32,883 bases of DNA from Saprospiraceae bacterium (GTDB taxonomy: Bacteria > Bacteroidota > Bacteroidia > Chitinophagales > Saprospiraceae). Both the position numbers and the translations under genes were made by a program. Under the pieces are notes generated by a model. That model searched no databases. It was given only the letters and a program-made list of their open reading frames with translations, and had not been told where the DNA came from. The DNA lies in contig WFYJ01000025.1 in NCBI GenBank assembly GCA_015490175.1, forward strand, positions 1-32,883, read 5' to 3'. Every line of letters begins with the position of its first letter. Position 1 is the stretch's first letter. This document shows positions 14,879 to 32,883 of the stretch, piece by piece.

Positions 14879-16063
14879 TCAGAACGCCACTTTCACCCGC
14901 ATGAACAGGGCCTTTAGCGGAAGCTGGTAGGCTTTGTTCTGGCGTGCGGCCTGTAACTGCCCGGTGAGGTAGAGATCCCAGTTGTCGGCAATGGAAAGGG
15001 TGAGGGAAGGGTTGATGAAGGTGGAATGGCTCTTGCCCGGACTGTAGATGAGGGCCAGGCTGACGTTGAGCAGCGGCGTGAACGGATAAGCCCCCATCGC
15101 GAACACGGCATATCGAAACGGCCAGAGGTTCTTTGCCGAAGGCTGGTAGGTGAACAGGTCGGTGAGGCCTTCCGTGGTGCCCGTGCTGGTGTAGAGCAAG
15201 CCGGTGTTGAGGTAAAAGGAATTGTCCCACATGTAGTCCAGCCCCACGGTGGCCGCCAGGTTGAATCGGGCCGAGTCGGCCTCGGGGTTGTAAAAGGCCG
15301 TCAGCTCACCCTTGAAGCCGGCGTCCTTGATGCTGCCGGCCCAGCCGCCGCCCAGCACCCAGTCGGCGCGCATCTTGCCGGCAATGATCTGGAAGTCGTA
15401 TTCGTGCGCATTGAAACCATAGAGCGCAGCAATGACTGCTTCGTCGAGGCGGTCGGCCAACTTGATGGCCAGCTCGGCACGCGAGGCAAAGCCCAGCCAG
15501 TACTGCACGCGCAGGGCGTCGCTGCCGGGGCGCTCTTCGTAGTCGAAGTCGATGAATGAGAAAGCGTTGAACAGGTCGTTGGGGTTCCACACGGTGCTGA
15601 TACCCCAGTTGATGCGCTGGCGCCCCAGGCTGATCTCCCAGTGGCCACTCGTCCAGGTGCCGTACAGGCGGTCGAGGGTCGAATGGATGGCCACCCCTTT
15701 GGCGGAAGCCTTGCCCCGGCTCAGATCGAAGAAGTCGTCGTTGGTCTGCAGCTCGATAAACTGATCGCCAAAGAGACGCACCTGGTCGCCCCAGAAAAGG
15801 CGATTGCGCCATTCCACGTGCAGGGTGAAGTGGTCCGAGCCGTACCAGGCCAGGTTGAGGCGCTGGTGGATGAGGTTGTCGTACAGACTGGTTTCGAAAG
15901 GGAACAGCGGCGGCAAGGGACTGATGAAAAAGGCCGACTGCAGGCTTTTGACGTAGCCCGAAGCCTGCCAGCGCGCAAAAGGCTTGCGGACAGGCGTCTC
16001 CTGCGCCTGCAGGAGCGCCAGAGGGAAGAGCACCAGAGCCAGACTACCGATCAAACGTCTCAT
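14879..16063 (-). CDS. Predicted outer-membrane beta-barrel protein of the ABC export locus
   Basis: This 394-aa protein has a signal peptide (residues 1-20, cleavage after LLQA, mature start QETPV), many short amphipathic strands rich in Tyr, Trp and Phe, and a C-terminal Phe (MRVKVAF), the usual signature of an outer-membrane barrel. A central segment reading GRQRINWG, then [25 protein letters not shown] in part, is the most distinctive stretch; I recognise it as typical of uncharacterised Bacteroidota porin-like proteins but cannot name the family. The start ATG at 16063 lies inside the last codons of the ATPase gene (20-bp overlap), so the two are translationally coupled. This places the protein as the outer-membrane end of the carrier/ABC system encoded upstream. 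Confidence 0.75.
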
Positions 16064-16733
16064 CCGATACGATTTTGCCGTCTTCGAGAGTGATGACGCG
16101 GCGCGCCCGCTCGATGACGCGCTGGTCGTGGGTCGAGAACAGGAAAGTGACGTTTTCCTCTTCGTTGAGGCGTGCCATGATGTCGAGCAGGTTGCGCGTG
16201 GACACCGAGTCAAGGTTGGCCGTAGGCTCGTCGGCAAGGATGAAGCGCGGCTTGGGGGCGAGGGCACGCGCCACGGCCACGCGTTGCTGCTGTCCGCCCG
16301 AGAGCTGGGTCGGCCGATAGTCCATCTTGTCGCCAAGGCCGACTTCCTGCAGCAATTGCCCGGTGCGGGCCATTCGCTCGGCTTTGGGGCGCCCCTGCAA
16401 CAGCATGACGAACTCGGCATTCTCGCGGGCCGTCAGCACCGGAATCAGGTTGTAGGACTGGAACACGAAGCCGATGTTGTCGCGCCGGAAATCGATGAGC
16501 CTGTTTTCCGAAAGGGTGGAAATGTCGGTGCCGTTGATCCACACCTTGCCCTCGTCGGGGCGATCCAATCCGCCGATGATGTTGAGCAGGGTCGTCTTGC
16601 CCGAGCCCGACGGCCCGACGATCGCCGTAAACTCGCCTTCGTGCACTTCCAGATCCACGCCGCGCAGGGCATGGACGGGCACCGTATCGGGATTGTACAC
16701 TTTCGTCAGTCCGGTTGCTTTGAGAATGATCAT
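16044..16733 (-). CDS. ABC transporter ATPase, LolD/MacB type
   Basis: This 229-aa ATPase powers the FtsX-type permeases encoded just upstream. All nucleotide-binding motifs are intact: Walker [10 protein letters not shown] (40-48), Q-loop FQSYNLIP (91-98), signature LSGGQQQR (144-151), Walker B FILADEP (164-170) and the switch His202 in STHDQ. The length and the LSGGQQQR signature are those of the LolD/MacB/FtsE branch, which drives extraction or mechanical transfer and not bulk pumping. The start of the beta-barrel gene overlaps its end. A 518-bp repeat-rich spacer separates it from the nearest permease gene, which is unusual for subunits of one complex. Confidence 0.93.
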
Positions 16734-16754
16734 GGCAAGGTTGTTTGTCTGGTT

Positions 16755-16803
16755 CAGTATTCAGTGCGCAGTGTTCAGTGCGCAGTGCGCAGTGCGCAGT
16801 GTT
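16755..16803. repeat. 7-bp tandem repeat (CAGTGCG)n
   Basis: Seven consecutive heptamers with the core CAGT (CAGTATT, CAGTGCG, CAGTGTT, three more CAGTGCG, CAGTGTT) begin 22 bp upstream of the ATPase start codon. They fall in the 518-bp spacer 16734-17251, where I see no gene. Confidence 0.9.
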
Positions 16804-16866
16804 TTGCTTTTTATGTTGATTCAGTTTTCGTTATGCATGGGGGGTGATTATCTCTGTTGTCCATCC

Positions 16867-17141
16867 ACTTTTTTCCAGCCGGCGCGCTCATCAATTCTTC
16901 GATTCCTGACACCCCTGAAAAAAGTGGCGCGCAAAAACTTGAACTTTACGGTCTGATGTTTGGCTTTTTTATCAAACAATTGCAAATCAATTTTTTGCAA
17001 ATAAATTTCAACAGACCGCAGCTTTCAAACGCAGAAGACGCAGCTTGCACGCATTTTTTGTAACTCTGTGAAAATCAGTGTACAACCAGTGGATTCTCTG
17101 TATAACTGTGAATGATCTTTCGCCCTTTTTCAGCGTGCTCG
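16867..17141. repeat. Decayed copies of the intergenic hairpin element and its flanks
   Basis: Pieces of the shared repeat are recognisable here in scrambled or decayed form: a right-end-like CTTTTTTCCAGCC followed by GCGCGCTCATCAATTCTTC (16868-16901), a left-end-like CACCCCTGAAAAAA (16910-16923), the flank CCGCAGCTTTCAAACGCAG (17017-17035, compare 27079-27097) and a right-end-like CCCTTTTTCAGCGTGCTC (17123-17140). The internal short hairpins are missing. Confidence 0.55.
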
Positions 17142-17170
17142 TTCCTCGATTGCTCAATAATGGATGTCTA

Positions 17171-17243
17171 TCGTCCATCGTCCATTGTCCGTTGTCCATC
17201 GACAATCGTCAGAAAGTCCCAAACCGCGTTGCGTCGAGCATGG
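17171..17243. repeat. 7-bp tandem array running into a 48-bp module copy
   Basis: Heptamers TCGTCCA, TCGTCCA, TTGTCCG, TTGTCCA, TCGACAA and TCGTCAG (17171-17212) lead into a forward copy of the module at 24046-24093 (here 17197-17243, with AGTCCCAAACCGCGTTGCGT matching TTCCCAAACCTGATTGCGTT). The array ends 8 bp from the stop codon of the permease gene. Confidence 0.75.
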
Positions 17244-17251
17244 TCCTCAGG

Positions 17252-18469
17252 TCAAATTTTGCGCAAAGCCTCCACGGGTCGGAGTCGGATGGCTTTGAGC
17301 GCCGGGTAAATACTGGCCAGCAGCGCAGTGACGAACACGGCAATGGCCAGCTCCACGTACATGCCCGGATAGACGTCGGGATAAATGACGGCCGACATGC
17401 CAAACTCGCTGAAGCCTTCAGCGGCATACCGACTGAGGTCGAGGCCCTGGTCTTTGTAAAAGTGGATCATGATGGCCCCGATCAGGATACCGAGCGGTGC
17501 CCCCACGAGGCCGAGCATGAGCGTCTCGAGCATGATCATGAAAAATACCCGCAGCTTGTTCATGCCGATGGCCATGAGCATGCCCAGCTCGCGCACGCGC
17601 TCCAGCACCGCCATGAGCATGGTATTGATGATGCCGAAGATCAGGCCCAGCATCACGATGACCATGATGATGTACACCGAAGTGGCGATTTGCGACTCGA
17701 ACAGGCGGATTTCGGGCGAGAGCTGCATGTAGGTCTGCACGTCGAGGCCGGGCAAGCGGCTGCGCAGGCGGGCAGCCACCGCGTCGGCAAGCGAGGCATT
17801 TTCGAGCAGGACGGCCAGCTCGTGCGCGATGCCTTCCTGGCCAAGGACGCGGTTCAGATCTTCCCGGCGCACGAGGGCGGTGCCTTCGTCGAAGGTATTG
17901 TTGTTGGTGTCGAACAGGCCGGTTACGCGAAAAGCCGCCGAGGTGATGTTGCCCTGCAGGTCCTGGAAAGTGAGCACCACCCGCGAACGCAGGCGCACGC
18001 CCAAGCGCTCGGCCAGTTTCCGGCTCATGCAAATGCCATTGCGCTTGCCTTTCGGCAAATACGCCCCTTCCACCAGCTTCTGGTCCAGTCGGGAAATGGC
18101 GGCTTCCACCTCGGGATCTACGCCACGCACGCGCAGGGCCCGGCTGCCACGCGCAGAAGAGACCATGCCGTTGACGATCGTGCGCGGACTGACCACCACT
18201 ACCCCATCCTCTTCGCCCACCAAGGCAGCCAGACTGTCGGCATTTTCGAGGTAAAACTTCACGTCGCGGTCTTGCAGGTATTCCGGATGGTGCACCTGAA
18301 TGTGCGACACCTCGAGGCGAATGGCACCATCGACATAGCTGTTGCCCATGCCGATGGAAAAGCCCATCAGGAAAATGACGGCCCACACCCCCAAGGCGAT
18401 GGCCATAATGACCACCCAGCTCCGCGTCGGGTTGCGCCAGATATTGCGCCAGGCTATTCGGAAAAGCAT
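17252..18469 (-). CDS. ABC transporter permease, FtsX/LolE family (second permease)
   Basis: This 405-aa inner-membrane protein has the four-helix MacB/LolCE layout: one helix near the N-terminus (about 17-40), a large periplasmic domain (about 42-265), then three helices (about 265-290, 312-336 and 372-395). The N-terminus MLFRIAWRNIWRNPTRS and the C-terminal RLRPVEALRKI are hallmarks of the family. The cytoplasmic coupling segment LERVRELGMLMAIG should contact the ATPase. It is the second of two related permease genes, which suggests a heterodimer like LolC/LolE. A copy of the GCCGAAAGGC hairpin word lies inside it at 18047-18056, read as YLPKGKR. Confidence 0.9.
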   Translation of the reverse strand: MLFRIAWRNIWRNPTRSWVVIMAIALGVWAVIFLMGFSIGMGNSYVDGAIRLEVSHIQVHHPEYLQDRDVKFYLENADSLAALVGEEDGVVVVSPRTIVNGMVSSARGSRALRVRGVDPEVEAAISRLDQKLVEGAYLPKGKRNGICMSRKLAERLGVRLRSRVVLTFQDLQGNITSAAFRVTGLFDTNNNTFDEGTALVRREDLNRVLGQEGIAHELAVLLENASLADAVAARLRSRLPGLDVQTYMQLSPEIRLFESQIATSVYIIMVIVMLGLIFGIINTMLMAVLERVRELGMLMAIGMNKLRVFFMIMLETLMLGLVGAPLGILIGAIMIHFYKDQGLDLSRYAAEGFSEFGMSAVIYPDVYPGMYVELAIAVFVTALLASIYPALKAIRLRPVEALRKI

Positions 18470-18487
18470 GAGTCCGGTTTTTTTATT

Positions 18488-18530
18488 GTTGAGGGTTGAG
18501 CGTGCAGGGTTGAGTTTTTTGTTTTGACTA
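18488..18530 (-). repeat. CTCAACCC repeat module, inverted copy
   Basis: On the minus strand this reads TAGTCAAAACAAAAAACTC followed by AACCCTGCACGCTCAACCCTCAAC in two parts. It matches the forward copy at 32648-32692 at nearly every position. It lies in the 205-bp spacer between the two permease genes. Confidence 0.8.
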
Positions 18531-18594
18531 TCAGCAATGTGCCCGAATCCTCGGCTCTTCAGTTCTTCGCATCCTCAAATACGCGCGCCCATCG

Positions 18595-18662
18595 GTCCGT
18601 CATGCACTCACTCCATCGCGCCGTCGCGCTGTCACTCCCTCTCTCGGTCGCTCCATAGCTCT
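18595..18662. repeat. Degenerate CACTC/CTCCATCGC tract
   Basis: Imperfect units of about eight bases such as TCACTCCATCGC and GTCGCTCCATAGC resemble the pyrimidine-rich module at 23980-24045. No coding potential is evident. Confidence 0.55.
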
Positions 18663-18674
18663 TTCGCAAACGCC

Positions 18675-19904
18675 TCAATGCCGCATGGCCTCGACCGGCT
18701 TCAGCCGCCCGATTTTCCAGAATGGATACAGCGCCAGTATCGTGGTGATGACGAACACCACCATGGCCTGACTCAGGAAAACAAAAGGCTCGAATGCTGC
18801 CGGAAAAATGGGCTCAAAGCCAAACCGGGCATAGGTCTCGGCCATCTCCTTGTTGCCCGTAAAGTCGATCGGATGGGTATGGAACCAGTACACCACCGGG
18901 AAGCTGGCCAGAAAACCCAGGAACGTGCCCAGAAAGGCGATGAACAGAATTTCGAGCCACACCTCTACGGACAACTGCAGCCGTTTCATGCCAATGGCTA
19001 CAAGGACGCCGAATTCGTAGCTGCGCTCGGCCGTCATCATGAGGATGGTGCCGAAAATGCCGAACGAGACGATGAGGTACAGGATCAGCAGCATGAGGTA
19101 GTTGCCGGCCGTATCCACGGCGCGCGCCTCCACCAGCTCGGGCATCATCTCGTGCCAGTCCATGACCTCGTATCGCGTCGTGTCGAGGGAACTGCGCAGC
19201 ACTTCCAGAACCTCCGGCACCTCGTCTTTGTCCTCCACCTTCAACGCGATGGACGTGATCAGCCCTTCTGCGCCGTAGAAATACTGCGCCACCGGCAGCG
19301 GCAAATACACCATCTGCTTGTTCAGCTCGGGCGAGCCAAAGTGCACCAGGCCCTTGACGGGGTATTTGCCGGCGGCATTGACGCCGTGGTAACCCTGGCT
19401 GAGCAGGATGATCGTGTCGCCCAGACTGAGCCCCAGGCGTTCGGCCACCCCTTCGGCAATGAGTGCGGCCGCTTCGCCGTCGGCGAAATAGCTGCCCGCG
19501 ACGATGCGATCTTTGAGCCTGGTCATCAGGTGCTCCCGCTCGGGATCGATGCCGACAACCATGACGCCCGTGGTATTGTCGCCCCGGGCGGCCAGCGCAA
19601 ACGATTCGAGGCGCGGCACCGTAGTTTCGACGCCAGGCACCCGCTCGGGAATGGCGCGCAGGCTGTCCGTTTCGGCGAAAGCCAGATCAATCGAGCGGTC
19701 ATTCCAGTAGCCTTTGGCATGGATCTGAATGTAACCGAAATAGTAGTTGACCACGCTCTCCTCCATGCGATCCCAGGCACCCTTCTGGATCGAAACCATG
19801 AGGGTGGACAGCACCACGGCGAAAAAGATCGACGCAGCCGTGATCCAGGTGCGCCGCTTGTTGCGCCAGATGTTGCGCCAGGCCAGTACGAGCAGGGTTT
19901 TCAT
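18675..19904 (-). CDS. ABC transporter permease, FtsX/LolE family (first permease)
   Basis: This 409-aa inner-membrane protein has the same four-helix plan as its neighbour: an N-terminal helix (about 19-40) after LAWRNIWRNKRRTW, a periplasmic domain (about 42-265) and three C-terminal helices, ending in GRLKPVEAMRH. The conserved coupling region TAERSYEFGVLVAIG precedes the third helix. It is clearly a relative, not a copy, of the permease at 17252-18469. It starts 47 bp after the LolA-like gene. The pairing of two LolE-like permeases with a LolA-like carrier is the main evidence that the locus moves lipid or lipoprotein. Confidence 0.9.
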   Translation of the reverse strand: MKTLLVLAWRNIWRNKRRTWITAASIFFAVVLSTLMVSIQKGAWDRMEESVVNYYFGYIQIHAKGYWNDRSIDLAFAETDSLRAIPERVPGVETTVPRLESFALAARGDNTTGVMVVGIDPEREHLMTRLKDRIVAGSYFADGEAAALIAEGVAERLGLSLGDTIILLSQGYHGVNAAGKYPVKGLVHFGSPELNKQMVYLPLPVAQYFYGAEGLITSIALKVEDKDEVPEVLEVLRSSLDTTRYEVMDWHEMMPELVEARAVDTAGNYLMLLILYLIVSFGIFGTILMMTAERSYEFGVLVAIGMKRLQLSVEVWLEILFIAFLGTFLGFLASFPVVYWFHTHPIDFTGNKEMAETYARFGFEPIFPAAFEPFVFLSQAMVVFVITTILALYPFWKIGRLKPVEAMRH

Positions 19905-19951
19905 CGGTCAGCTGTTGAGTCGGTTTTTCTGGAAAAAAGCCATTGCCAAGC

Positions 19952-20713
19952 CTATGCGCGCAAACGCTTCATGTTCTGGATGGAGAAAAAGCTGTCGGGA
20001 ATGGGCTTGTCGAACTCGATACTCAGTTGCTCGAGCACGGTCTTGTGACCGGGCTTGTCAGCCGGCATCATCTCCATGCGGATGGGAATGACCTTTCCGC
20101 CCATCTCGCCCACCTTGGTGGTGATCATGGTATTCACCAGGTAGCCGTCTTCATCGTAAAACTCGGCCTTCATCTGGACAAAATCCTTCACATCGATCCA
20201 GGTGATCACCTTGCCCCACACGACAGCCGCATCGGGCCTGGGCGTCATCTCGATCTTGTAGCAGAGGCGGCCGTTCACCTCCTCTTTGCCCAACAGCTTG
20301 TGTTCGAAATCCTCTACGATGCTCGACTCGCGCACCAGATCGTCGTTGGTGAAGTCGGACCCCATCCACGACTGGCCCATCATGGAAGGGGGCAGCTTGA
20401 TGACGCGGTCGATGCCGGGCTGCCAGTTCCAGATTTCGTTTCCGCGTTTGAGAAAGGCCGTTCCCCTGTCGCGCGCAGGCGCCGTGACGAGGATGAGCGA
20501 ATACTCGGTGCCCTTGCTCCAGGTCTTGAGCTGCATCTCTCGCTTCCAGGTGGGCCGCACGATGGTCATCTTCACCTCGCCGATGGCCGAGCGCACCCCG
20601 CGCATCTTCTCATCGGCCCGCTTGACGATTTCTTTGGCCGTCAACTCCTGCGCCCGGGTGGCAAACGGCGCCCAGAAGAGCACCAACAACAGGGCTGTGC
20701 TTTTCCAATTCAT
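19952..20713 (-). CDS. LolA-like outer-membrane lipoprotein-sorting protein
   Basis: This 253-aa periplasmic protein has a signal peptide (about residues 1-22, cleavage near ATRAQ) and the LolA-like half-barrel fold of the COG2834 group. Diagnostic segments are AKEIVKRADEKMRG (26-39), the central GSDFTNDDLVRES and DFEHKLLGKEEVNGRLCYKI, and the closing IPDSFFS. These proteins bind acyl chains in a hydrophobic cavity and hand them across the periplasm. This subgroup is typically encoded beside ABC or RND exporters and is distinct from housekeeping LolA. The start is the ATG at 20713; an upstream in-frame start would add 23 residues before the signal peptide. It stands between tetR and the first permease gene. 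Confidence 0.88.
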   Translation of the reverse strand: MNWKSTALLLVLFWAPFATRAQELTAKEIVKRADEKMRGVRSAIGEVKMTIVRPTWKREMQLKTWSKGTEYSLILVTAPARDRGTAFLKRGNEIWNWQPGIDRVIKLPPSMMGQSWMGSDFTNDDLVRESSIVEDFEHKLLGKEEVNGRLCYKIEMTPRPDAAVVWGKVITWIDVKDFVQMKAEFYDEDGYLVNTMITTKVGEMGGKVIPIRMEMMPADKPGHKTVLEQLSIEFDKPIPDSFFSIQNMKRLRA

Positions 20714-20829
20714 GGTCGATGTTTTGAGGTATGATTTGTGCTTCAGTACAATGCGAAAAATGACTACCTCAACGCTCCACACTCAACCAACACCATTGCA
20801 AAACGCCATCTCAACATCACGGCGGCCTG

Positions 20830-20849
20830 TCCCGATTTTTTTTTCGGGA
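20830..20849. repeat. TCCCGA-(T)8-TCGGGA hairpin after tetR
   Basis: A 6-bp stem with an all-T loop on the plus strand lies 11-30 bp beyond the tetR stop. The stem sequence belongs to the same CCCGA...TCGGG set as the hairpins of the intergenic element at 23704-23928. With no T-run after the stem, it is not a standard terminator. Confidence 0.5.
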
Positions 20850-20859
20850 AAGCAGTGTC

Positions 20860-21471
20860 TCAACCTCCACCCCCATCCCCATCCAGAACATTCAAAAATC
20901 GCTCGAGCATATACCGTTTCATCTTTTCCAGTGGATAATCCTCACCGATCTGCAGATAGTGCATGAAAATGCCATCGATCGCAGCAGACAACAGCCAGGC
21001 CTCGCTTTCCGGATCGGGATGCTGCATTTGCCGAAAGGCATCTACCGTAAATTCGAACACAATTTGGGGCGTACCGCCAGCCTCCATCATCCGACCTGCC
21101 ACCTCGTTGGCAGCAGGCTGGAACGCCAGTGAGGTGTACAGCCGCCAGTAGTCGGCATTCGCAGCCACGTGATCAAAAGTCCGCTCGATCACCAGGCGCA
21201 GCCGCTCGACGGGATCCGACATCGCGCGCACCTCTTCGATCAGCGCTGCGGCAAAAGCAAAACCGTCCTCGAGTATGGCGGCCAACAAGTCTTCCTTGCT
21301 GCTGAAGTAGTTGTACAGCAGTCCCTTCGACATCCCCACCTCGCGCGCAATCTTGCTGATCGAGGTGTTCGCATAGCCGTCGCGCGCGAACAGCCGCAAG
21401 GCCGCATCCTTGATCTGCCGGATGCGCTGGCTGCGTATGGCATCGAATTGTTCCGGTGTTCTCGGGCTCAT
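20860..21471 (-). CDS. TetR/AcrR-family transcriptional regulator
   Basis: This 203-aa repressor has an N-terminal helix-turn-helix (about residues 14-60): RIRQIKDAALRLFARDGYANTSI in part, then IAREVGMSKGLLYNYFSSKEDLL. The C-terminal two-thirds is the ligand-binding and dimerisation domain. The start is the ATG at 21471, which has a good ribosome site (AAGGAG five bases upstream); the TTG at 21492 lies inside the promoter box and is ruled out. It is the first gene of the carrier/ABC locus and is divergent from a TonB-dependent receptor. A 20-bp palindrome over its own promoter predicts autorepression, and the ligand may be a substrate of the exporter. Confidence 0.93.
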   Translation of the reverse strand: MSPRTPEQFDAIRSQRIRQIKDAALRLFARDGYANTSISKIAREVGMSKGLLYNYFSSKEDLLAAILEDGFAFAAALIEEVRAMSDPVERLRLVIERTFDHVAANADYWRLYTSLAFQPAANEVAGRMMEAGGTPQIVFEFTVDAFRQMQHPDPESEAWLLSAAIDGIFMHYLQIGEDYPLEKMKRYMLERFLNVLDGDGGGG

Positions 21472-21489: not shown

Positions 21490-21532
21490 CAAATATCGCA
21501 GTTTGATTTTGATTGACCAAACGTTCAGTCAA
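21490..21532 (-). promoter_or_regulatory. tetR promoter (-33/-7) with overlapping TetR operator
   Basis: On the minus strand TTTG (21518-21521) is followed after exactly 20 bp by GATATTTG (21490-21497), one mismatch from the Bacteroidota TTTG-N19-21-TAnnTTTG promoter. The 20-bp imperfect palindrome TTGACCAAACGTTCAGTCAA (21513-21532; half-sites agree at 8 of 10 positions) covers the -33 box. Its size and TTGAC...GTCAA arms are typical of TetR-family operators. Confidence 0.7.
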
Positions 21533-21761
21533 AATTTTTTGTCATGCACTCTACTGACTTTTTTCACCATGCCCATGCCCGGGTGCACGCCTTGAAAAAC
21601 CGGCATCCGGATGCGCCAATGGGCGACGCAGCAGACATTTTTCTGACAATCGGAAAGAGCAGGCTGAATTTCTTTGCGCGGCCAAAACCCACACTGCTGT
21701 AAGCATCCGAAATCGGACGTTGCTCCGCAACGTCTCTACGTATCACATTCAAAACAAAACC

Positions 21762-23690
21762 ATGAAAACACAACGGATCTCTCCCTTCGTCCTGATTGTA
21801 GCCATGGGCCTTGCCCTGATCGCGAAGGCACAACACCAACTCGATTCGGTGGTCGTCACTGCTTCGCGACTGAATGTGCAGGCCCGCCAGATGGGCCAGC
21901 ACGTCACCGTACTCGAGGGCGCTGCACTGCACCGCATCCCGGCCACCTCGCTCGACGACCTGCTGCGCTACCTGCCCGGCATCGAAGTTCAGAGCCGCGG
22001 CTTGTTCGGCACGCAGGCCGACATCACCATGCGCGGAAGCACTTTCAACCAGGTGCTCGTCCTGATCGACGGCGTGCGCGTCAATGACCCGCTCACCGGC
22101 CACTTCAACGGGTACATGCCCGTGACCATGGCCGAGATCGAGCGCATCGAGATCATTCACGGAGCCAGCTCGGCCATTTACGGCACCGAAGCCGTGGGTG
22201 GCGTCATTCACATCATCACCAAAGCGTTTGCCCGGAGCCAGCGCAAAGGCCTCGGCGCACAGGCCGAATTGCAGTACGGCCGGCACCATACCGCCACGGG
22301 CAGCGCCGGCATCGACTGGCAAACGGACAACCTGCGCCTTGTGGCCGGCTGGCAGCATGCCCGCTCGGATGGCCATTTGCCGAAAGGCGACTCGCTGCCC
22401 TACGACTTCAACCTGACGACGGTGGCGGCCGGCATGGGTGCGCAGCTGGCCCCCAATGTGCGTCTGTCGCTGCGCAGCGCCCTCGACATGCGCGACTTCA
22501 ACGCGCGCTTCTTCTACACGCGCAGCACTTACGACCGTTCTCGCGAGCAGGTACACCGCTGGTTCAATCAGGCGGCACTACAGTGGCAGCACAACGACCG
22601 TCAGGAGACGCAGCTCGTGGCCGGCTACCAGACCACGACCGACTCGTTTCTGTTCCATCCGGCTTTTCCGGGCAACCAGCACACCACGCGCCAGCTCGAC
22701 CTGAAGGGCTGGCACCGCATCGAAGCCAGTGAGGCCCTGCGCTTCACCTTCGGCGGTCAGTATCTGGGCAAGCGCATCGAAAGCAACGATCGCGGCAATC
22801 ATCGCACGGGTCAGTGGGGACTCTTCGCCCTGACCCATGTGCAGCCTTCCGGCAAATGGGATCTGCAGGGGGGGCTGCGCCTCGAGCATGAAGCCTCATT
22901 CGGCACCGAACTGGTGCCGCAGCTCAGCTTCAGCTGGCGCGCCCTGCCGACCCTGCGCCTGCGGGGCTTTGCCGGGCGCAGCATCCGCGCGGCCGACTTC
23001 ACCGAGCGGTACATCAGCACCAATCTGCCCACGCTCAGCCCCGGCCGCAACCTGGGCAATCCCGAGCTGCTGGCCGAGCGTTCGTGGAACTTCGAACTGG
23101 GCGCCGATGCCGTACTCGGCACCACCCTCTCGGCCCACTTGACGGCCTGGTACCGCAACGGCACCAACCTCATTGATTTCGCGCTGACGGAAGGCAGCCA
23201 GATTCCGAATGCCAACAACATCGACCCGAGTGGTACTTACTTCTACGCCCGGAACATCGCCTCGCTGCAAACCACCGGCATCGAGGCGGAACTCCGCTAC
23301 CGCAAAACGCTCGAAGCCGGCACGCTCGAAGCCACGGCCGCATATCGCTGGCTCAACTTCGCCTCGGAAGGCGACGTGGCATCGAAATACATCGCCAACA
23401 GTGCCGGCCACCTGTTCACCGCCTCGGGCCAGTGGACAAGCAGCCGATTCAGCCTTTCGGCAAACGGCCTGTACAAGCAGCGCACGGCCGAAGCGGCGGA
23501 AGCAATCAACCGCGAACTGCCCGCCTCGTACATGGTGTGGAACCTCAAAGCTGCCGTGACGCCCACCACGCGACTGCCCCTGCAAGTGACTTTCACCCTG
23601 CTCAATGCCTTCGACGAGCAGTACGCCGACATCCTCGGCGCCGACATGCCGGGCCGTTGGTGGCTCGTGGGCATCCGGACTTCTTTCTGA
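21762..23690 (+). CDS. TonB-dependent outer-membrane receptor (BtuB-like)
   Basis: This 642-aa receptor brings a scarce ligand across the outer membrane using TonB energy. It has a signal peptide (residues 1-23), a TonB-box-like DSVVVTA (28-34), a plug domain with ADITMRGSTFNQVLVLIDGV and IERIEIIHGASSAIYGTEAVGGVI in successive pieces, and a 22-strand-type barrel ending in WWLVGIRTSF with the C-terminal Phe. Size and plug sequence are nearest the BtuB/vitamin or siderophore group, not the large SusC group, and no SusD partner is present. The start is the ATG at 21762; the frame opens at a TTG at 21720 but the signal peptide fits 21762. I see no cobalamin riboswitch upstream. The ligand remains unknown. 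It contains two copies of the GCCGAAAGGC word (22379 and 23452). Confidence 0.92.
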   Translation: MKTQRISPFVLIVAMGLALIAKAQHQLDSVVVTASRLNVQARQMGQHVTVLEGAALHRIPATSLDDLLRYLPGIEVQSRGLFGTQADITMRGSTFNQVLVLIDGVRVNDPLTGHFNGYMPVTMAEIERIEIIHGASSAIYGTEAVGGVIHIITKAFARSQRKGLGAQAELQYGRHHTATGSAGIDWQTDNLRLVAGWQHARSDGHLPKGDSLPYDFNLTTVAAGMGAQLAPNVRLSLRSALDMRDFNARFFYTRSTYDRSREQVHRWFNQAALQWQHNDRQETQLVAGYQTTTDSFLFHPAFPGNQHTTRQLDLKGWHRIEASEALRFTFGGQYLGKRIESNDRGNHRTGQWGLFALTHVQPSGKWDLQGGLRLEHEASFGTELVPQLSFSWRALPTLRLRGFAGRSIRAADFTERYISTNLPTLSPGRNLGNPELLAERSWNFELGADAVLGTTLSAHLTAWYRNGTNLIDFALTEGSQIPNANNIDPSGTYFYARNIASLQTTGIEAELRYRKTLEAGTLEATAAYRWLNFASEGDVASKYIANSAGHLFTASGQWTSSRFSLSANGLYKQRTAEAAEAINRELPASYMVWNLKAAVTPTTRLPLQVTFTLLNAFDEQYADILGADMPGRWWLVGIRTSF

Positions 23691-32768: not shown

Positions 32769-32883
32769 GAGGCCCCTGAAAAAACCCAAAATCTCGCGCA
32801 AAACCTGTTCCGAGTCTTCGGAAACCTGTTCCGAGTCTTCGGAAACCTGTTCCGAGTCTTCGGAAACCTGTTCCGACTTGTCG
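32769..32883. repeat. Terminal-inverted-repeat hairpin element, copy D (cut by the window edge) with expanded hairpins
   Basis: The left end GAGGCCCCTGAAAAAA is followed by the conserved AATCTCGCGCAAAACCTG and then hairpins TTCCGA-GTCT-TCGGAA at 32808-32823, 32829-32844 and 32850-32865, and the first part of a TTCCGACTTGTCGGAA unit at 32871. The units repeat exactly every 21 bp, so the hairpin has expanded in tandem. The right end lies outside the window. Confidence 0.85.

Follow-up and report, generated by a model that had tools for sequence, protein, structure and literature searches.

The window analysed here is the whole of a 32,883-nucleotide (nt) stretch of DNA, contig WFYJ01000025.1 of a Saprospiraceae bacterium, and the system in question is an operon of six genes on its − strand that appears to encode a trans-envelope exporter. 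In the order of the operon these are a TetR-family regulator gene, tetR (20860–21471; TetR_N 7.1e-19), the gene for a LolA/DUF1329-type periplasmic carrier (19952–20713), two genes for LolCE-like ATP-binding cassette (ABC) permeases (permease 1, 18675–19904; permease 2, 17252–18469), a LolD-like ABC ATPase gene (16044–16733), and the gene for an outer-membrane barrel (14879–16063). An earlier note on this DNA had read six same-strand genes here, for TetR, a LolA-like protein, two LolE-like proteins, a LolD-like protein, and a barrel, with the barrel gene overlapping the ATPase gene by 20 bp; all six are open at these coordinates and the overlap (16044–16063) is confirmed. A 20-bp palindrome, TTGACCAAACGTTCAGTCAA, at 21513–21532, is the likely TetR operator. 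Loci and genomes used for comparison are labelled L and G, respectively, with a number, and publications are cited as given in excerpts of each paper.

Families and structures of the encoded proteins

The carrier matches PF17131 (LolA_like) over the whole profile with 196.5 bits (4.1e-58), passing the curated Pfam cut-off of 30 bits, and matches DUF1329 at 1.8e-7; in the same Pfam scan there is no match to PF03548, the canonical LolA family. Its AlphaFold2 model (predicted local distance difference test, pLDDT, 88.6) is closest among solved structures to LolA3 of Porphyromonas gingivalis (9tp6) and the DUF1329 protein 4z48, both at Z 27.5 (27 % and 24 % identity, given jointly for the two in that order), a structural likeness as far as the model goes. 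Next are 3bk5 (Z 26.7) and 3buu (Z 26.0), whereas structures titled LolA from other bacteria reach only Z 8.6 to 13.0. The carrier is therefore of the PF17131/DUF1329 branch and is not a canonical LolA. By the earlier note, a structure model of the carrier lacking a hydrophobic cavity would count against its reading; the LolA half-barrel is present in the model, and the cavity itself was judged indirectly, one face being clearly more hydrophobic (difference of at least 0.2) in seven of the 13 strands and not in the other six.

Both permeases contain MacB_PCD and FtsX domains (Pfam), and the ATPase matches ABC_tran at 1.1e-37. Among curated models they are closest to LolCE and LolD, respectively, yet all score below the equivalog cut-offs: the ATPase with 230.4 bits against 307.75 for LolD, and permeases 2 and 1 with 113.3 and 101.7 bits against 362.45 for LolCE. 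A higher-scoring LolCE match elsewhere in the genome (234.8 bits) is likewise under 362.45, therefore this cut-off is strict for the lineage. The single PF03548 match of the genome lies on contig C49, away from the operon, and this second LolA together with the better LolCE match elsewhere speaks against the operon being the housekeeping Lol route. No LolB gene is present among the six, the rest of the genome not having been searched for one. The premise of the earlier note that Bacteroidota lack a typical LolB has been superseded, since LolB is present in the phylum (PMC11885536; PMC13103446). In Pfam, none of the six products matches a resistance-nodulation-division (RND) family, nor a membrane-fusion adaptor or TolC family; the search for the latter two did not extend to the rest of the genome.

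The barrel has no Pfam or NCBIfam match, and a sequence search of the PDB with it gave no result. Its family is seen through its homologues, 14 of 28 of which match the DUF1302 model (PF06980) at a lax threshold of E≤10 (best 9.5e-7; the window protein does not match). Across five genomes the Pfam DUF1302 model found G108 alone, and thus misses the subfamily of the window's barrel. In the structure model (pLDDT 88.9) the main strands were read as 18, and the matches listed include OprD/Occ, AlgE, MOMP, and chitoporin structures at Z 22–24; an Omp85-type barrel does not figure among those listed, which are OprD/Occ, AlgE, MOMP, chitoporin, and other porins. The best-conserved segment is residues 150–180 (the GRQRINWG region), between strands 5 and 6, with 3.70 bits against a mean of 2.48. 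This segment is presumably loop L3 in porin numbering, the loop that constricts the pore in classical porins. From homologue matches and the model, the predicted barrel is a DUF1302-like, 18-strand channel of the OprD/AlgE type.

Conservation of the unit and its operator

Co-occurrence was assessed in 395 Bacteroidota genomes, with cut-offs of at least 230 bits for the carrier and at least 80 bits for the barrel, both placed in score gaps after the lists had been viewed; the input was 96 barrel rows (the second pieces of two split matches being omitted) and the 118 strongest carrier rows. The carrier is found in 88 genomes (about 22 %), the barrel in 89, and both in 87, with G419 counted as lacking the carrier although one of 70.1 bits adjoins its barrel. 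For the 87 barrel matches of at least 100 bits, the carrier lies 2.5–8 kb upstream on the same strand in 77 cases, at 1.2 and 8.5 kb in two, in an adjoining RND operon in one (G125), and elsewhere in seven. Of these seven, the operon seems to be truncated by a contig end in G312, G142, and G237. G233 and G426 are genuinely split: these genomes do contain the carrier, but the block lolA-perm1-perm2-ATPase lies apart from the barrel. In G161 and G342 the carrier is apart from the barrel with neither explanation assigned. Only G337 combines a strong carrier with the absence of a barrel match, and there the carrier gene is interrupted and a permease piece is present. Four barrels that appeared to be orphans (L048 in G025, L027, L030, and L031) all have a carrier in the genome (377–404 bits), which in three of the four is beside permease genes. 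The co-occurrence check that the earlier note proposed thus finds the barrel with the carrier and ABC cluster, and barrels lacking the ABC genes are not the majority.

The order lolA-perm1-perm2-ATPase-barrel is not a chance one, being complete in 62 out of 62 loci, which were selected for having both carrier and barrel and include some close relatives, so that not all are independent. One of these is on the larger-replicon record of Vibrio campbellii, therefore the operon core crosses phyla. Extra permease copies are seen within otherwise standard operons at L022, L135, and L147.

Of 63 operon loci, the window among them, 28 have a tetR gene no more than 1.5 kb upstream of the carrier gene. 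Using a degenerate pattern derived from the window's own site, with a match defined as at least 15 of 20 positions, the palindrome is found upstream of tetR in 26 of these 28 operons (25 of 27 without the window), compared with 0.6 % of shuffled controls, and before the carrier gene in two of the 35 operons without a detected tetR. At two mismatches or fewer it is a single site in the 4.14-Mb genome. Since the palindrome is conserved before tetR and unique in the genome, TetR looks like a dedicated local switch; that it represses the operon and is released by a ligand is probable by analogy with its family. The motif was also found in two of nine tetR genes examined outside window-type operons, in RND operons or a second ABC arrangement: before tetR of the RND operon L091 (18 of 20) and before tetR in L099, of the second ABC arrangement (17 of 20).

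The six genes form one unit, and the description of the locus as a self-contained trans-envelope unit with its own regulator is backed by co-occurrence, gene order, and operator. The divergent TonB receptor gene, which the earlier note had thought might belong to the same regulon, does not share in this support. It starts at 21720 or, more likely, at 21762, and the palindrome is 41 nt from the start of tetR and 187–229 nt from that of the receptor. Among the 62 other operon loci a full-length receptor is present only in the sister species (L037), with a single partial match of 131 residues at L106; at L044, outside the 62, a related receptor is downstream of the barrel. The receptor was therefore rejected as a member of the unit.

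Relatives with either motor

The carrier and barrel families of the operon also occur with a different motor. A pump of the RND/MMPL type stands beside a carrier and barrel of these families at L091, L092, L094, L096, L097, and L105, and in a wider cluster at L104. The pumps of L091, L094, L096, L105, and L104 match MMPL in Pfam, and those of L092 and L097 were assigned by similarity. In Prevotella nigrescens (L114), the annotation gives an MMPL transporter, a lipoprotein-sorting protein, and a DUF1302 protein, encoded by the gene after the carrier, while L112 and L113 have pump and carrier with no annotated barrel adjoining. Three of six RND-linked barrels scanned are over the DUF1302 cut-off (L104, L114, and L094), that of L096 is slightly under it, and those of L091 and L105 have no DUF1302 match. 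When eight RND-linked barrels were compared as a profile with the barrel family of the window, they matched at E 3.1e-38 over 340 columns; the barrels of the second ABC arrangement (A4) matched only weakly at profile level (probability 74.8 %, E 2.6e-5).

A tree of 85 carriers places the 63 of window-type ABC operons on one side of a branch (support 100/98), 11 RND-linked carriers in a separate group (99/94), and nine of the second ABC arrangement in a third group (100/99), including L098, which was placed with the ABC group by its gene order. Two rows from proteobacterial records with ABC genes stand apart. Several RND rows are long-branched, and their exact placement is subject to a tool warning. 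This grouping indicates that the motor has changed at least once, and Bacteroidota relatives use either motor, RND or LolCDE-like ABC.

Several of the compared loci have neighbours of note. At L104 (G108:C4:66000-84000), one same-strand cluster encodes an RND pump, LolA-like carrier, DUF1302 barrel, pyridoxal phosphate (PLP) aminotransferase, acyltransferase, patatin, thioesterase, glycosyltransferase, ABC1-type kinase, and phasin-like protein; it resembles a cluster for the synthesis and export of a lipid. A window-type ABC operon (L146) is present in this genome as well. On a plasmid record of Paraburkholderia ginsengisoli (L115), an ABC ATPase, FtsX-like permease, LolA-like carrier, and 404-residue hypothetical protein occur with a P450-containing gene, a phosphopantetheinyl transferase, and a lipase with chaperone, possibly a product cluster with its own envelope route. 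L116 (Escherichia coli 64A:C plasmid unnamed1, 4.9 Mb) has a LolD-like ATPase, permease, and LolA-like carrier, with neighbours that, read from their sequence starts, resemble polyketide or fatty-acid synthase genes; the record, although called a plasmid, is probably a chromosome. The Haliovirga abyssi plasmid (Fusobacteriota; L113) has two pairs of MMPL and lipoprotein-sorting protein in one 17-kb stretch.

The pairing of carrier and barrel with an RND pump is known already; here, a LolCDE-like ABC complex replaces the pump. AmeABCD of Castellaniella defragrans combines an HAE3 RND pump with a DUF1302 protein of the outer membrane, a DUF1329 protein of the LolA superfamily, and one more periplasmic protein. 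Deletion mutants tolerate monoterpenes less well and accumulate more Nile Red when grown with limonene and treated with an uncoupler, but not when grown on acetate alone (PMC6394551). For P. putida PP_0765 (DUF1302) and PP_0766 (DUF1329), co-folding pointed to a transport system that includes an RND pump (PMC10866462). AmeABCD, like PP_0765/PP_0766 with PP_2018/PP_2019, has the barrel and carrier families of the window operon, and shares its all-in-one trans-envelope layout, with carrier and DUF1302-type barrel (assigned by family profile) in one locus. The substrates of both systems, as far as the excerpts go, are hydrophobic or amphipathic (PMC6394551; PMC10866462). They differ in the motor, an RND pump rather than a LolCDE-like ABC complex, and in an extra periplasmic protein (AmeC, PP_2018) with no counterpart among the window's six genes.

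In P. gingivalis, PG1178-81 (TetR, MMPL, LolA-like, and hypothetical genes) are among the most strongly upregulated genes when hemin or iron is limiting, and similar TetR-MMPL-LolA-like operons are reported in P. intermedia (PMC10470040; PMC10434189). These and the P. nigrescens operon have TetR and carrier as in the window, with an RND/MMPL motor. Borrelia BBJ23-29 is a single locus in which an ABC transporter of MacB/LolE type occurs with a LolA-like protein and an outer-membrane barrel, and it was proposed to export a non-polar ligand (PMC13078400); it differs in that the barrel is of the Omp85 type, there is one permease gene (homodimer), TPR proteins are present, and no TetR is named in the excerpt. 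The Lol system itself (LolCDE, LolA, and LolB) shares the ABC transporter type and the carrier fold with the window, whereas in the window the LolD and LolCE cut-offs are missed, the carrier is of another branch, and a barrel replaces the LolB lipoprotein. A search of the open-access papers in PMC listed no paper on an ABC-driven operon with a DUF1302-like barrel and a LolA-like carrier.

Proposed transport role and its alternatives

The reading favoured here, at a probability of roughly 0.6, is that the operon encodes a TetR-controlled, ATP-driven trans-envelope exporter of a hydrophobic or amphipathic small molecule or a specialised lipid. With regard to direction, substrate class, and both handovers, we infer the following route. 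The LolCDE-like ABC complex would pull the substrate out of the inner membrane and pass it to the soluble carrier, the carrier would take it across the periplasm to the barrel, and the channel would release it at or through the outer membrane. TetR would govern the operon through the one palindrome, with release probably by the substrate or a related compound.

Several observations weigh against this reading. The regulator was not detected near 35 of the 63 carrier genes, and in G260, the 1.2-kb case above, a short permease piece is present between carrier and barrel and there is no ATPase. In the 62 loci the operon has no recurrent biosynthetic or catabolic neighbour. Evidence for a hydrophobic cavity in the carrier is weak, coming indirectly from the seven of 13 strand faces. 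A more polar site has been described for LolA3 of F. johnsoniae (PMC11885536), and a hydrophobic groove for LolA3 of P. gingivalis (PMC13103446). The OprD-like fold of the barrel is equally compatible with uptake, and PP_0765 and PP_0766 are required for growth of P. putida on Tween 20 (PMC10866462).

Lipoprotein sorting is disfavoured as the role of the operon on the best reading of these data. A specialised route for lipoproteins or lipopeptides, that is, a second Lol system with the barrel standing in for LolB, one of the possibilities raised for Borrelia BBJ23-29, would fit the nearness of permeases and ATPase to LolCE and LolD among curated models and the LolA-type fold of the carrier, but it is considered unlikely, as both cut-offs are missed widely and the carrier resembles PF17131/DUF1329 structures (Z 26.0–27.5) far more than canonical LolA (8.6–13.0). 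The proposal in the earlier note that the barrel is a lipoprotein acceptor finds no support, since the barrel is predicted to be a porin-type channel of a family that serves RND small-molecule efflux (PMC6394551), the same carrier and barrel families work with RND pumps, and LolA3 of P. gingivalis, among the nearest solved carriers, binds LolB only very weakly (PMC13103446). Uptake by a retrograde route, in which the barrel would admit an amphiphile, the carrier would cross the periplasm with it, and the ABC complex would drive it into or out of the inner membrane for the cell to use, is improbable to much the same degree. Besides the Tween 20 phenotype, it could draw on the substrate-specific uptake porins (Occ family, chitoporins) among the structural matches of the barrel, and on the response to hemin limitation in P. 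gingivalis, where an RND-type relative is among the most strongly upregulated genes (PMC10470040). Against it, no catabolic gene recurs beside the operon, LolCDE/MacB-type ABC transporters are known as exporters or extractors, and the dye and tolerance assays of AmeABCD point to export (PMC6394551).

No more probable than these is a route that delivers one of the cell's own specialised lipids, such as a pigment or a sulfono- or glycolipid, to the outer membrane. It is suggested by the RND-carrier pair of L104, clustered with a DUF1302 barrel, PLP aminotransferase, acyltransferase, patatin, thioesterase, and ABC1-type kinase, and by the location of LolA2/LolB2 of F. johnsoniae in the flexirubin operon (PMC11885536). 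However, the L104 cluster is one genome with the other motor type, the 62 loci show no recurrent lipid-synthesis gene next to the ABC-type operon, and a carrier in about 22 % of the 395 genomes is patchy for a core structural lipid. Nor do the conserved neighbours in the 62 loci give any clue to the substrate; recurrent neighbours are confined to groups of relatives.

Export of a small molecule or specialised lipid thus remains preferred, and a broader idea can be put forward tentatively. The LolA/DUF1329 carrier and the DUF1302 channel may be a reusable outer half of an exporter, the engine of which has been swapped over evolution between an RND pump and a LolCDE-like ABC complex, sometimes with TetR operators of one and the same type. 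The two halves would be linked by a soluble shuttle and not by a continuous conduit, and lipoprotein sorting would be one relative of such systems. The poorly assigned PF17131 carriers and DUF1302 barrels gain a concrete common setting from these loci, the role of LolA3 in Bacteroidota becomes a testable question, and the single conserved operator is a handle on the inducer and hence on the substrate class. They also advise caution, in that genes resembling LolCDE and LolA should not be taken as lipoprotein sorting by default.

The remaining observations concern the surroundings and spacing of the operon. At seven loci, all of one family (L106, L118, L120, L122, L123, L124, and L125), it stands amid what we take, from sequence starts, to be histidine-biosynthesis genes, and a short regulator-like protein is encoded upstream in four of the 62 loci. 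A same-genus genome, G001, carries the operon with a barrel of 76 % identity. The distance from the ATPase end to the earliest plausible barrel ATG ranges from −38 to +398 bp in 25 loci. Between permease 2 and the ATPase there is a gap of 518 bp in the window (16734–17251) and of about 60 bp in the sister species. The gap in the window holds a copy of a dispersed non-coding repeat that has at least 45 more matches genome-wide (40 of 474 candidates were scored), the core of which is at about query positions 180–410. This repeat reached no Rfam family at the gathering score, and Rfam and tRNA scans of the window found nothing. Close to the window end, at 32801–32876, there is a perfect 21-bp tandem repeat of 3.6 copies.

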